From the NCBI GenBank assembly GCA_903867985.1, contig CAIPTO010000101.1, positions 1-48,185 of the forward strand: 48,185 nt of DNA, in the 5' to 3' direction. The notes below the pieces were generated by a model. The model did not search any database. It was not told where the DNA came from and saw nothing but the letters and a program-made list of their open reading frames with translations. How positions within the stretch are numbered: the first letter of the stretch is position 1; each line of letters starts with the position of its first letter. This stretch comes from an uncultured Elusimicrobia bacterium. GTDB taxonomy: Bacteria > Elusimicrobiota > Elusimicrobia > Elusimicrobiales > UBA9959. Below are positions 4,415-47,062 of this stretch, piece by piece. The position numbers and the translations under genes are program-made.

Positions 4415-4454
4415 ACCGCCGCGCTGTCTTGCTGTCGTACTGCCGCGCTAAACA
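4415..4454. repeat. Array A: period-8 degenerate tandem repeat
   Basis: ACCGCCGC GCTGTCTT GCTGTCGT ACTGCCGC GCTAAACA; the recO stop codon lies in the last unit. Confidence 0.7.
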
Positions 4455-5155: not shown

Positions 5156-5190
5156 AATGATATATTAGCAATTTACCTTACGGCAAATCG

Positions 5191-5316
5191 CGCGACAGCA
5201 GATAGCGCTACACTGCAAATAAGCAATTTTTACAAATTTTCCCTGCTGTTATGTATTCGGTTTCTTCTGCTGTCCCGCTGCCGCGCTGTCTTGCTATCTG
5301 CCACTTGCCCTTTGTC
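5191..5316. repeat. Array B: period-8 repeat, inverted halves, in the recO/rpmH divergent gap
   Basis: Right half GCTGTCCC GCTGCCGC GCTGTCTT GCTATCTG CCACTTGC CCTTTGTC (5269-5316); left half 5191-5225 carries the same words inverted (GCAGATAGC 5198-5206 vs GCTATCTGC 5293-5301). Confidence 0.7.
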
Positions 5317-8711: not shown

Positions 8712-8842
8712 GGATAGTGACTGGTGCAAAGCACAATTCGGTGAACAAGCGGATAGTGCAGAGTTGAGAGTGCAGAGTAAACAGCGCAGGGTGCCGGTAC
8801 CCTCCTTATAAACTCGCCACTAGCCACTCGCACTATCCGCTT
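8712..8842. repeat. Array C: period-7 repeat with inverted halves upstream of mnmE
   Basis: GTGCAGA GTTGAGA GTGCAGA GTAAACA GCGCAGG (8756-8790) and inverse ACTCGCC ACTAGCC ACTCGCA (8812-8832); 13-bp IR AAGCGGATAGTGC 8747-8759 / GCACTATCCGCTT 8830-8842. Confidence 0.7.
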
Positions 8843-14768: not shown

Positions 14769-14824
14769 CCCTCTAATCCTCTAGTCCTAAAGTCCTCTGT
14801 TGCTCCGATTCTCCAATCCCTCGT
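14769..14824. repeat. Array D: period-8 degenerate tandem repeat
   Basis: CCCTCTAA TCCTCTAG TCCTAAAG TCCTCTGT TGCTCCGA TTCTCCAA TCCCTCGT. Confidence 0.75.
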
Positions 14825-14922: not shown

Positions 14923-14980
14923 CAGTGGTTTAAAGTGGTGGATAATGTTAGTAAGTGGTTTATAATGTTGTAAAATGTAA
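14923..14980 (+). promoter_or_regulatory. MraZ-box-like 10-bp phased direct repeats
   Basis: CAGTGGTT 14923, AAGTGGTG 14933, AAGTGGTT 14953, with degenerate TAATGTTA 14943, TAATGTTG 14963, AAATGTAA 14973; all on a 10-bp step. Confidence 0.7.
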
Positions 14981-15506: not shown

Positions 15507-16394
15507 ATGGATGGGAATTACACGCACCTTCCGGTGCTTTTGGAAGAAACAACGCAGCTGTTGATAACTGACAAATCCGGGATTTATATCGACGCTACAC
15601 TGGGACTCGGCGGCCACGCAATAAAGATGCTCGCTATCCTGGACGATAAGGCAAAGGTGATCGGCGTAGACTGGGATCCGGAAATGGCGGCTCTTGCCGC
15701 AAAAAATCTTGAGCCATACGGAACACGGGCGAAAGTAATCCAGGGGAACTTCGCCAACATTGATGAGATCCTTAAACGCGAGGACCTGGCCGGGGTAACA
15801 GGCATATTGTTCGACTTGGGGATCTCCTCGCTTCATTTTGACAAGCCGTCGCGGGGATTCAGCCTTAAGCACGAAGGCCCGCTGGATATGCGCATAAATC
15901 CCGGCAACCCTCTGACGGCGTACAGCATAATCAACCACTGGCCTTACGAGCAGATAGAACATCTGATCCGCGTCTGCGGCGAACGCCATTCAAACAAGAT
16001 AGCCCGCGCCATAGTGGACAAGCGGTCTGCCAAGCCCATGGAGACCACGGCCGAGCTGAGGGACCTGATAGAAAGAGTTGTTCCTTTCAGAGGCGAAAAG
16101 ATTCACCCGGCCACCAAAACATTTCTGGCTCTGAGAGTAGCGGTAAACTACGAGTTTGACAATCTTACCAGGGGCATACAAAAGGCGATGCCTTTCCTGA
16201 CCAAAGGCGCCAGAATGGGGATAATAACCTTTCACTCTCTTGAAGACAGGATAGTTAAAGAGACCTTTAAGATCATGGCTGACATGGGCGAATGGAAGAT
16301 GGTGACCAGGAAGCCGATCATCCCTTCCGAAGCGGAAGTGACCTTAAACAAAAGAGCCCGAAGCGCAAAGCTGCGAGTCATAGAAAAAGCGTAG
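15507..16394 (+). CDS. rsmH: 16S rRNA (cytosine(1402)-N(4))-methyltransferase RsmH
   Basis: HLPVLLEETTQLL...DATLGLGGHA, GISSLHFDKPSRGFS, GIITFHSLEDRIVK; start taken at MDGNYTHLP rather than 15375. Confidence 0.96.
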   Translation: MDGNYTHLPVLLEETTQLLITDKSGIYIDATLGLGGHAIKMLAILDDKAKVIGVDWDPEMAALAAKNLEPYGTRAKVIQGNFANIDEILKREDLAGVTGILFDLGISSLHFDKPSRGFSLKHEGPLDMRINPGNPLTAYSIINHWPYEQIEHLIRVCGERHSNKIARAIVDKRSAKPMETTAELRDLIERVVPFRGEKIHPATKTFLALRVAVNYEFDNLTRGIQKAMPFLTKGARMGIITFHSLEDRIVKETFKIMADMGEWKMVTRKPIIPSEAEVTLNKRARSAKLRVIEKA

Positions 16395-21787: not shown

Positions 21788-22873
21788 ATGCTCTATTACA
21801 TTCACTATTTTAAGGACATCTTCACCCCGCTCAATGTGTTTCAGTACATAACGTTCAGGATCGGGGGAGCGATTATGACTTCCTTTTTCCTGAGCCTTCT
21901 GATAGGACCGGCGCTCATTGCCAAACTGCGCTCCTTCAAAATAGGCCAGATTCAGCGCGTCGACGGCCCCAAAAGCCACCTCTCAAAAGAGGGCACTACG
22001 ACCATGGGCGGCCTGCTTATATTCCTGACATTGATACTCAGCACATTGTTGTGGGCAAGACTGGACAACCGTTTCATTCTGCTGCTTATTTTCACGACCG
22101 TCATACTCGCCTTCACCGGCTGGATGGATGATTACACGAAACTGGTGAAGAGGAACCCAAAAGGGGCGTCTTCGAAGTTTAAATTCCTTCTGCAGGTTTG
22201 CACAGCCACAGTTGTGGTCGGATATCTGGCAGTGGACCCGCCTAACGCCGCCTACGCAACCAGTGTTTCCGTACCCTACACAAAAGAGCTTTACCTTAAC
22301 TTGGGCTTTCTTTACGCCGCGCTTGCAATGTTTATGATAATAGGTTCGTCCAACGCGGTCAATCTGACCGACGGCCTCGACGGCCTGGCCGCCGGCACCA
22401 TCGTTTTCGCGGCGTTAACCTTCGCTATCCTGGCGTACTCGGCCGGGAACGTGAAGCTGGCCGCATATTTTAAGATTATACATGTGGCTGGCGCGGGCGA
22501 GATCGCTGTTTTTCTGGCCGCGCTGATCGGGTCCTGCCTGGGGTTCCTTTGGTTTAACGCCTATCCGGCGGAGATTTTTATGGGCGACACCAGTTCACTG
22601 TTCCTGGGCGGAGCGATAGGCGTTTCGGCCATAGCGGTAAAGCAGGAACTCATTCTGCCGATAGCGGGGGGGATTTTCCTGCTTGAAACGCTTTCGGTCA
22701 TATTGCAGATGGGATCCTACAAACTGCGCGGAAAGAAAAAGCTTTTTCTGATGGCTCCGTTACATCATCACTACGAGATAAAAGGCATAGCCGAATCAAA
22801 AGTGACGGTGCGTTTCTGGATAATAGGCATCATGCTGATGCTGGCGGCGTTATCGTCGCTTAAAATAAGATAG
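21788..22873 (+). CDS. mraY: Phospho-N-acetylmuramoyl-pentapeptide-transferase MraY
   Basis: KEGTTTMGGLLI, NAVNLTDGLDGLAAG, APLHHHYEIKG. Confidence 0.97.
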   Translation: MLYYIHYFKDIFTPLNVFQYITFRIGGAIMTSFFLSLLIGPALIAKLRSFKIGQIQRVDGPKSHLSKEGTTTMGGLLIFLTLILSTLLWARLDNRFILLLIFTTVILAFTGWMDDYTKLVKRNPKGASSKFKFLLQVCTATVVVGYLAVDPPNAAYATSVSVPYTKELYLNLGFLYAALAMFMIIGSSNAVNLTDGLDGLAAGTIVFAALTFAILAYSAGNVKLAAYFKIIHVAGAGEIAVFLAALIGSCLGFLWFNAYPAEIFMGDTSSLFLGGAIGVSAIAVKQELILPIAGGIFLLETLSVILQMGSYKLRGKKKLFLMAPLHHHYEIKGIAESKVTVRFWIIGIMLMLAALSSLKIR

Positions 22874-22876
22874 AGA

Positions 22877-22959
22877 ACCAGAGGACTAGAAGATCAGAGG
22901 ATCAGCAGTATCCGGAAAAATCACATTGATTCTTCAGTCCTCCAATACTCTGATCCTCC
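22877..22959. repeat. Array E: period-8 repeat with inverted halves between mraY and murD
   Basis: ACCAGAGG ACTAGAAG ATCAGAGG ATCAGCAG (22877-22908); GATTCTTC AGTCCTCC AATACTCT GATCCTCC (22928-22959). Confidence 0.75.
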
Positions 22960-22964
22960 CAATT

Positions 22965-33383: not shown

Positions 33384-33390
33384 CAAGCCG

Positions 33391-33558
33391 GATGCAAAAC
33401 CGTCTAGCGGCAAAGCAGTTTGGATGTAAAGCGATCTAGACAAATCACTGAATCGCTATGCCTCTAAGTTGCTAGACGGCTTTGCATCTAAATCGCTGAT
33501 TGGCTGTGCCTCTAAGCTGCTAGATTGCTTTGCGTCTAAATTGCTGATTTGCTATGAC
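33391..33558. repeat. Array G: period-8 repeat with 24-nt higher-order unit and inverted left half, ending on the lipA start codon
   Basis: 33455-33558 reads GCTATGCC TCTAAGTT GCTAGACG GCTTTGCA TCTAAATC GCTGATTG GCTGTGCC TCTAAGCT GCTAGATT GCTTTGCG TCTAAATT GCTGATTT GCTATGAC; IR 33391-33408 vs 33471-33488 (17/18). Confidence 0.9.
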
Positions 33559-35149: not shown

Positions 35150-35161
35150 TTTATAATCGGC

Positions 35162-35201
35162 GCTGCCGCGCTGTCTTCCTGCCGCTCTGCCGCGCTAATC
35201 T
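35162..35201. repeat. Array H: period-8 repeat directly abutting a start codon
   Basis: GCTGCCGC GCTGTCTT CCTGCCGC TCTGCCGC GCTAATCT then ATG. Confidence 0.75.
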
Positions 35202-36422
35202 ATGCGGGAACTTGATTTAATTTTCTACTATACAAAGGAAAACCGATATAGCTTCAACGCATTGGGCGGAGCGCTTGAAAGCTCCGGTCTGATTGGCGTA
35301 GATATTCTCCTCCCGAAAACCGAAAAAACTCTCGTAGAAGACGTCAGCGCCTCTTTGGAAAAGGGGCGCGCGACGGCGATAGCCTTATCTTTTTTTACCG
35401 CTCAGGCTCCGCATACGGCAATGCTGATCAAGCGTCTGCGCGGGCGCTTCGGCAGCCGGGTGTTTATATTGGCGGGCGGCCCGCACCCCAGCGGGGCACC
35501 GGAAGCGGTCAGAGCCATGGGGGTTGATTACGTTATAAAGGGGGAAGGTGAAAAAGCCATAATTGATCTCTCTCGCGCGCTACTGAAAGGCGAGGCGCCC
35601 GTAGAGACGATCATCACGACCCCCCGGGATCTGATAATGGACGATTATCTTCCATTTTCGCCGAAGTGGCATATGTTCGGCTCAATAGAAATAACGCGCG
35701 GCTGCCCTTTCGGTTGCTCCTACTGTCAAACCGCCTATCTTTTCGGAGCCAGGCAGCGTCACCGGAGTCTTGACAATATCCTATCCATAGTCGGCCTGAT
35801 GAACGCCGAGGGGCTGACCGATATCCGTTTTCTCTCTCCGGACGCCTTCGCCTACGGATCAAAAGACGGCCGCACTCTGGCTTTGGGCAAAGTGGAAGCG
35901 CTTCTGAAGGGCACACGCGAGATAATAGGCTCTAAGGGAAAGATATTTTTCGGCACCTTTCCTTCCGAAGTCAGACCCGATCACGTGACCTTGGAAACGC
36001 TGGAACTCACCTGCCGCTACGCAAGCAATAAGCGTCTGGTCATAGGCGCCCAAAGCGGCAGCCCGCGCATGCTGGAGACAATACGCCGCGGGCACACCGT
36101 TTACGATATCTACCGTGCGGCGGAGCTGGCCGCCGCCGCCGGATTCGACGCTAATATCGACTTCATCTTCGGCCTCCCGGGCGAAACCGAACATGACGCT
36201 GAGCTGACCATAAAAGTTATAACGGACCTGGTAAAAATTGGCGCCAGGATACACGCGCACACATTTATGCCGTTGCCGCAGACCCCGTTCGCCAGGGAAT
36301 CTCCCGTCCCGCTAAGCGCCAGAACCGAAAAATTACTCAGGACTCTGTGCTCACGCGGTCACGCCTTCGGCCAGTGGGAACGCCAAAGAGTGACCGGGGG
36401 GGCGGGGAGAAAAACAATTTAA
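35202..36422 (+). CDS. B12-binding domain / radical SAM protein
   Basis: N-terminal cobalamin-binding-like GSRVFILAGGPHPSGAPEAV...DYVIKGEGE and radical SAM GCPFGCSYCQT. Confidence 0.88.
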   Translation: MRELDLIFYYTKENRYSFNALGGALESSGLIGVDILLPKTEKTLVEDVSASLEKGRATAIALSFFTAQAPHTAMLIKRLRGRFGSRVFILAGGPHPSGAPEAVRAMGVDYVIKGEGEKAIIDLSRALLKGEAPVETIITTPRDLIMDDYLPFSPKWHMFGSIEITRGCPFGCSYCQTAYLFGARQRHRSLDNILSIVGLMNAEGLTDIRFLSPDAFAYGSKDGRTLALGKVEALLKGTREIIGSKGKIFFGTFPSEVRPDHVTLETLELTCRYASNKRLVIGAQSGSPRMLETIRRGHTVYDIYRAAELAAAAGFDANIDFIFGLPGETEHDAELTIKVITDLVKIGARIHAHTFMPLPQTPFARESPVPLSARTEKLLRTLCSRGHAFGQWERQRVTGGAGRKTI

Positions 36423-46276: not shown

Positions 46277-47062
46277 CTACCCTTTTACTTCTTTCTCAAG
46301 AAATAGTTTAAGCATCTTCATATCTTCCCAGGTGTCGCGCTTCAAATTGGAGTTCCGGAGAAGCGCCGCGGGATGGTAAGTGGGCAGGACCTTAATAGGA
46401 TGTCCGGGGCCGAAAAGTTCAACGGGATAATCGTACCATTTGCCGCGCACGAAACTTATACCCTGGGTTACACCCAGCAGGACCTTGGTGGCCACGGAGC
46501 CCAGCGTCACTATGCATCTGGGTTTTATCAGCATCAGCTGGCGGTCAAGGTAAGGACGACAGGCGGAAATCTCTTCAGGAGTGGGCGGACGGTCGTTACC
46601 GTGGGCTTCCGGATTCTCCGGATTTATCATGGGATGACACTTTACGATATTGGCTATATAAACATCTTCACGCTTTAAACCGAGCACTGTATCCAGAATC
46701 TTATCCAACAACTGGCCCGAACGGCCCACAAAAGGCTCGCCCTTGTGATCTTCCTGAAAACCCGGTCCCTCTCCGACAAACACCACTTTGGCGCGCGGAT
46801 TTCCCACGCCTACTACGGCATTTATCCGGGAGTTGCCAAGCTGGCACTTGTGGCATTTTCCAATCTCCGCAGCCAGAGTGTCCATTTCGCCCGGCTCGCG
46901 GCCGGTTACCGGTGCGGCAACTGTCTTGCTTTCTTGCTGTCTTGCTGTCGTACTGTCTTGCTTTCCCGTTGTCTTGCTTGTCACGGACATATAGGTATCC
47001 TCATCCAGAGCCTTAACATAGGCGGCCAGATCTCCGGCCAGGGCTTTAAATTCGTTTCTCAT
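46277..47062 (-). CDS. Uracil-DNA glycosylase, family 4 (Fe-S type)
   Basis: CHKCQLGNSRINAVVGVGNPRAKVVFVGEGPG, NIVKCHPM, CRPYLDRQL, LPTYHPAALLR. Confidence 0.92.
   Translation of the reverse strand: MRNEFKALAGDLAAYVKALDEDTYMSVTSKTTGKQDSTTARQQESKTVAAPVTGREPGEMDTLAAEIGKCHKCQLGNSRINAVVGVGNPRAKVVFVGEGPGFQEDHKGEPFVGRSGQLLDKILDTVLGLKREDVYIANIVKCHPMINPENPEAHGNDRPPTPEEISACRPYLDRQLMLIKPRCIVTLGSVATKVLLGVTQGISFVRGKWYDYPVELFGPGHPIKVLPTYHPAALLRNSNLKRDTWEDMKMLKLFLEKEVKG
46920..46983. repeat. Array J: period-8 repeat inside the UDG coding sequence
   Basis: ACTGTCTT GCTTTCTT GCTGTCTT GCTGTCGT ACTGTCTT GCTTTCCC GTTGTCTT GCTTGTCA. Confidence 0.9.

Follow-up and report, generated by a model that had tools for sequence, protein, structure and literature searches.

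The window analysed here is a stretch of 48,185 nt from an Elusimicrobiota MAG (2.62 Mb, 147 contigs; relatives include GWA2_56_46 and NC_groundwater_1548). It raises the question of how a tandem array of octamers came to encode part of a uracil-DNA glycosylase (UDG), and how this array is related to similar ones between genes. The UDG gene (46277..47062, minus strand) encodes 261 amino acids, and its product matches the profiles PF03167 (1.9e-39) and TIGR00758 of family 4 (1.1e-58). The protein consists of an N-terminal helix, a repeat-coded linker and the catalytic domain. A class A octamer array at 46921..46978, of CTGTCTTG-type on the plus strand and AGCAAGAC-type on the sense strand, encodes linker residues ~28-48. 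From 46921 its units read CTGTCTTG CTTTCTTG CTGTCTTG CTGTCGTA CTGTCTTG CTTTCCCG TTGTCTTG, followed by CTTGTCAC. The eight perfect octamers reported by the initial annotation are a slight overstatement, as seven good units without indel are found and the eighth is marginal, while the linker peptide TSKTTGKQDSTTARQQESKT is encoded as had been claimed. A short heptamer-like remnant, GGCCGGTTACCGG, adjoins the octamers at 46900..46912 (+). It is of the type of the heptamer linkers in the genomes G001 and G015 (GGTWACY family).

TRF assigns a period of 8/16 to the array. Its lag-8 identity is 31/40, whereas 40 surrogates of the window from a first-order Markov model reach 24 at most, and no lag in the window other than the multiples of 8 exceeds 25. 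CTN6 runs of at least five units are observed four times in the window and never in the surrogates. A CRISPR array is ruled out, since the 8-nt units stand head-to-tail without spacers. No clear inverted partner is seen for the UDG array.

The array lies outside the conserved part of the enzyme. Solved family-4 UDGs can be aligned to the query from residue 60 onward only. In the AF2 model pLDDT is below 50 at residues 23-54, the array-coded stretch included, and the remainder matches family-4 UDG structures (4zbx/1ui0). Residues 23-54 are predicted to form a disordered linker. Cys70 and Cys73 are invariant in 22 orthologs. CHKC, by which the catalytic domain had been named, is its first cysteine pair and is not a catalytic motif by itself. 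The conserved cysteines and the modelled fold place the protein in family 4, with a predicted UDG activity.

An array in coding DNA could be a by-product of selection at the protein level, where a Ser/Thr/Gln/Lys linker is favoured and the DNA repeat arises by chance or from codon bias. In line with this, a variable low-complexity linker is present at this place in all orthologs of the family. However, when the amino acids were fixed and the codons resampled by genome usage, the mean lag-8 score was 14.9 versus 26 observed, and none of 5000 synonymous resamplings reached the observed score (P<2e-4). The linker is written in codons that this genome uses rarely (z=-4.4), and the DNA units of the array are also found in non-coding DNA. 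We regard selection for the peptide as a scarcely credible source of the repeat. In the orthologs, resampling is likewise significant at lag 8 for the loci L035 and L037 and at lag 7 for G015 and G001; the short heptamer part of L037 taken alone does not reach significance (P 0.07). The initial annotation asked whether orthologs would show the same residues with unrelated codons, and those sharing residues were found to share codons too. These data support the linker as a DNA-repeat product.

The kinship between coding and intergenic arrays is seen directly in the 20-mer GCTGTCTTGCTGTCGTACTG, which is exact at 4423-4442 and at 46936, as had been noticed before. A third exact copy is found elsewhere in the genome (G000:C30:1292), and by an arithmetic estimate ~0.002 exact 20-mer pairs are expected by chance per 48 kb of random sequence. 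The sharing reflects the few unit variants used by all class A arrays and does not prove direct copying between sites 4423 and 46936. The earlier proposal of one dispersed repeat family is borne out, with units common to coding and intergenic arrays.

Besides the UDG copy, three class A arrays (all features here are given for the plus strand) lie between genes of the window. The array at 4416..4450 in the recO-glyQ spacer carries the shared 20-mer and has the recO stop codon at its edge, the one at 5262..5303 has an inverted partner upstream near 5190-5210, and the one at 35163..35202 fills a 52-nt spacer of co-directional genes. A class B octamer stem-loop fills the aspS-lipA spacer (33384..33556; right arm CTN6 x14). 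Class C octamers form an inverted pair between two mur-cluster genes (22872..22963; AGN6 x5 facing CTN6 x4) and an intergenic single arm of CTCTAATC-type at 14771..14818. A heptamer inverted pair makes a hairpin in the spacer upstream of an mnmE-like gene (8746..8842). At two of these places the unit family is replaced in G001: its aspS-lipA spacer holds another octamer family, and its spacer orthologous to 35150-35201 holds an inverted heptamer array instead. Two ~20-bp repeats of AAGTGGTGGATAATGTT-type at 14933-14973, directly upstream of an mraZ-like gene (15010), may be ordinary MraZ-box repeats.

A survey of ~869 kb, one third of the 2.62 Mb genome, extends this picture. Among the lags not divisible by 3, the signal is prominent at 7, at 8 and at multiples of these; multiples of 3 are attributed to coding bias because such segments are almost all coding. 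By the assignment of a home-made gene finder on this third of the genome, 22/33 of the octamer and 35/47 of the heptamer arrays (57/80) lie between genes, though coding sequence makes up 88% of the DNA sampled. An inverted partner is present in the flanks of 57/113 arrays, versus 13 when the flanks of other arrays are used. The octamers fall into class A (CTGTCTTG/CTGCCGCG/CTGTCGTA), class B (CTAAATTG/CTTTGCCT) and class C (CTCCAGTC/CTCTAATC), and the heptamer families include AGGGTTY, CGTAAAG, GCCATA and GGTWACY. Between units there are 469 transitions versus 671 transversions, by which a transition-only variation is ruled out. With head-to-tail units in the 5-11 nt range that exceed chance expectation and recur at many dispersed, mostly intergenic sites, the arrays are of the STRR/LSSR kind. 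The density of arrays per Mb (lags 7+8) is 54+38 in G000, 107+12 in G001, 118+26 in G014 and 356+99 in G015; it is 12+8 and 0+0 in the array-poor G002 and G041. Genomes with array linkers in UDG are array-rich. G015, the most array-rich genome sampled, also contains a long TAAGGGTT/C octamer array of ~20 units (L173, 14203-14368).

UDG is not the only gene that hosts such DNA. The class A in-frame peptide (GSKTARQQDSAA-like) occurs in nine genes in the AG sense: UDG, a MobA-like NTP transferase, an XdhC-family protein, a UvrD-type helicase, a 4'-phosphopantetheinyl transferase, a ketoreductase-like protein (no Pfam hit), PdxA, MiaB and TsaB. The sole CT-sense class A run in genes is an inverted arm in the helicase gene, and a further coding call (L190) is taken as chance. 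The coding copies stand at the C-terminus in XdhC and PdxA and between domains in MiaB; others fall in loops. An AddB-like nuclease gene, an aldolase-II gene and an MFS transporter, the last in its central loop, contain class C or heptamer copies. The sister-genome orthologs of MiaB, TsaB and the MFS transporter have a shorter loop without the insert or other sequence there; the MiaB loop of G001 is YPVSGNRYPVTTNSLPVTGYR, which we read as GGTTACC-type heptamers. In this MFS gene (L148 15311-16558) a whole heptamer stem-loop, with AGGGTT arm, loop and AACCCT arm, lies in frame (arrays 15903-16010), and the G002 ortholog, 86% identical, is without it.

The history of the UDG linker was followed by a lag scan of UDG orthologs at 109 loci. 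Significance at lag 8 is confined to our own locus, L035/L115 and L037/L124, and at lag 7 to G001 (L032/L036), G015 (L071/L116), L064 and L078; the control lags give at most two matches in the same scan. The octamer tract starts at one common codon in our locus, L035 and L037, the last from another genus. In L037 the octamers are followed by heptamer-like sequence, and our linker keeps the short GGCCGGTTACCGG beside its octamers. The UDG linkers of the sister genomes G001 and G015 hold heptamers only, and those of G002 and G041 are non-repeat. The linker lengths of the three octamer-bearing orthologs between fixed anchors are 34, 38 and 55 amino acids; the differences are not multiples of 24 nt, the unit of change suggested earlier, among only three genomes that are too diverged for single-unit changes to be followed. 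Relatives without repeats carry a linker of similar length. The single lineage-specific insertion that had been envisaged is thus too simple, since a non-repeat linker, octamers and heptamers are found at one site; a permissive site with repeat turnover describes it better. In the bin-3311 genome (G057) UDG is present twice, with 85% and 72% identity to the query (L035/L115, contig CAIXBR010000073). The closer copy, on a contig of 2.6 kb, may have entered the bin as contamination from a relative of our species.

The unit type in the linker is discordant with the UDG tree, several forks of which are weakly supported, and in most cases it tracks the genome-wide abundance of the unit. GGTWACY has 199 matches in G015, 32 in G001, 5 in our genome and 0 in G002. 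The class A triplet pattern is found 38 times in our genome and 0 times in a reversed control, 0 times in G001-G003, and with 5 matches at two places in G014. Beyond our genome and G014 it is confined to genus g9, giving 5/296 genomes of the phylum. G014 is an exception: it has an octameric UDG linker, yet only one other class A place in the genome. An old relic fits this better than a recent spread.

Taken as a whole, we estimate a probability of about three in four that the array in UDG represents one member of a dispersed family of short tandem repeats specific to the lineage. Several families of degenerate units, 7 or 8 nt long, would spread through the genome and settle chiefly in spacers of co-directional genes, often as hairpin-forming inverted pairs. 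Inside genes, survival would be limited to arrays whose in-frame reading is free of stops, hydrophilic and placed in a loop, a linker or a tail; selection would remove the copies that add stops or hydrophobic peptide, and the orientation bias of the coding arrays supports such selection. In UDG the arrays would occupy a pre-existing disordered linker between the N-terminal helix and an intact catalytic domain, and the array-coded peptide, probably near-neutral, may act as a spacer. At a given site the resident unit family, 8-mer or 7-mer, would be replaced over time by the family active in the lineage. We infer that the arrays spread by copying from one to another, through slippage, template switching or ectopic recombination of their units. 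For both spread and turnover we favour general processes of recombination and replication, which would act on the short units that arrays have in common. That a dedicated machinery writes and rewrites arrays at fixed sites, with a template unit of 7 or 8 nt switching between species so that spacers and loops are re-coded in concert, appears to us very unlikely.

The array DNA could instead be a MITE-, REP- or RPE-like element, moved in trans by a transposase such as a RAYT and inserted as a unit into spacers and genes. Copies in at least nine unrelated genes and in many spacers, hairpins from inverted arms, and two Y1_Tnp (RAYT-like) genes in our genome speak for such an element. However, the arrays have no fixed termini or length, and unit number and order vary. 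No 7/8-mer array was found around L258, one of the Y1_Tnp genes, and the true arm partner is the best match in only 7/14 pairs. Both Y1_Tnp genes are flanked by other palindromes (AAAAGGTAGCGTCTACCTTTTT and similar), which speaks against RAYT mobilisation. A transposase-moved element is unlikely on these grounds. As the true partner tops the other arms of its family in only 7 of 14 pairs, arm-specific complementarity was rejected as well. The RAYT-like genes of our genome (L258, C71:3235; L260, C96:1827) and of G001 (L259) are flanked by short palindromes of their own, such as AAAAGGTAGCGTCTACCTTTTT and AAAAGGTGCCTGGCACCTTTT.

The nearest precedent for the coding copies is the Rickettsia palindromic elements, RPEs (Ogata 2000/2002, reviewed in PMC10969869, PMC2229807). 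In both cases repeat DNA lies in frame in unrelated conserved genes and gives a recurrent peptide at tolerated positions. RPEs are ~100-150 bp palindromes with terminal inverted repeats, whereas our repeat is an octamer array of variable unit number, with a shared in-frame peptide in conserved genes and no palindrome of defined length. In UDG, as in most coding copies, the array has a single arm and a variable number of units, so it works like an RPE insert and is not an RPE.

The arrays might also be selected as binding sites (a regulator, IHF/HU) or as RNA structures such as intercistronic hairpins, with the UDG copy as a regulatory site within coding DNA. Folding is indeed better in the hairpin spacers (mean z -3.7 versus -1.2 in the others); these spacers have long stems and mostly lie between co-directional genes. 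Paired octamers of Geobacter have been proposed as sites of a global regulator (PMC2700814). Against this, the energies of sense and antisense do not differ in the hairpin spacers (p=0.28), sister species carry a different unit sequence in corresponding spacers, array-poor relatives do without arrays, and a clear inverted partner is missing for the copy in UDG. We consider a regulatory or RNA role quite unlikely. Selection for pairing at the RNA level was rejected on the lack of sense/antisense asymmetry (p=0.28). Geobacter metallireducens has octamer (GTTGCTYN) and heptamer (MTYCTGA) arrays paired on opposite strands, a GGGACCG heptamer element within and between genes, and a sister species with another multicopy sequence in the proBA spacer (PMC2700814). 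Our arrays share with these the paired 7-/8-mers, the genic copies and the differing repeats in a sister's spacer; the Geobacter arrays differ in their unit sequences and in being read as regulator sites, and the text consulted describes no peptides in conserved proteins.

Reading the UDG array as a member of a dispersed tandem repeat family is consistent with other bacteria. The degenerate heptamer arrays of Xanthomonas, GGGAATC/(GGGANTN)n, and Nostoc, GGGGA(C/T)T (Rehm 2015, PMC4692102), likewise have short degenerate tandem units that are dispersed, mainly intergenic and in a minority intragenic, and in Xanthomonas many inverted pairs. Those arrays are G-rich quadruplex formers with one unit family studied per genome, whereas our genome has many 7-/8-nt families that are in general not G-rich, and the period switches at orthologous sites. 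The TAACTGA heptamer repeats of Beggiatoaceae, Cyanobacteria and Bacteroidetes (MacGregor 2015, PMC4679880) are also dispersed and mostly intergenic, tolerated in ORFs in a stop-free orientation and favoured at the protein periphery, but their heptamer is a single invariant one and mostly lies immediately upstream of a start codon. In open-access PMC papers we did not find a description of many 7-/8-nt families per genome, period switching at one protein linker and in-frame use in many core genes. Here dispersed non-coding repeat DNA supplies linker or loop sequence to core enzymes (UDG, MiaB, TsaB, PdxA), a case of coding repeats outside Rickettsia with non-palindromic 8-mers. One loop with different repeats in sister species is a natural series on array spread and protein tolerance. 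To be noted, a low-complexity linker encoded by such a genome can reflect read-through of a genomic repeat instead of a selected protein feature.

One heptamer family is telomere-like (CCCTAAA/CCCTGAA), with inverted pairs in spacers (L155 15336-15401, L148 15955-16010). A telomerase-like origin from a reverse transcriptase was rejected: PF00078 (RVT_1) is absent in the heptamer-rich G001, G013 and G024 and present in the array-poor G002 and G041.
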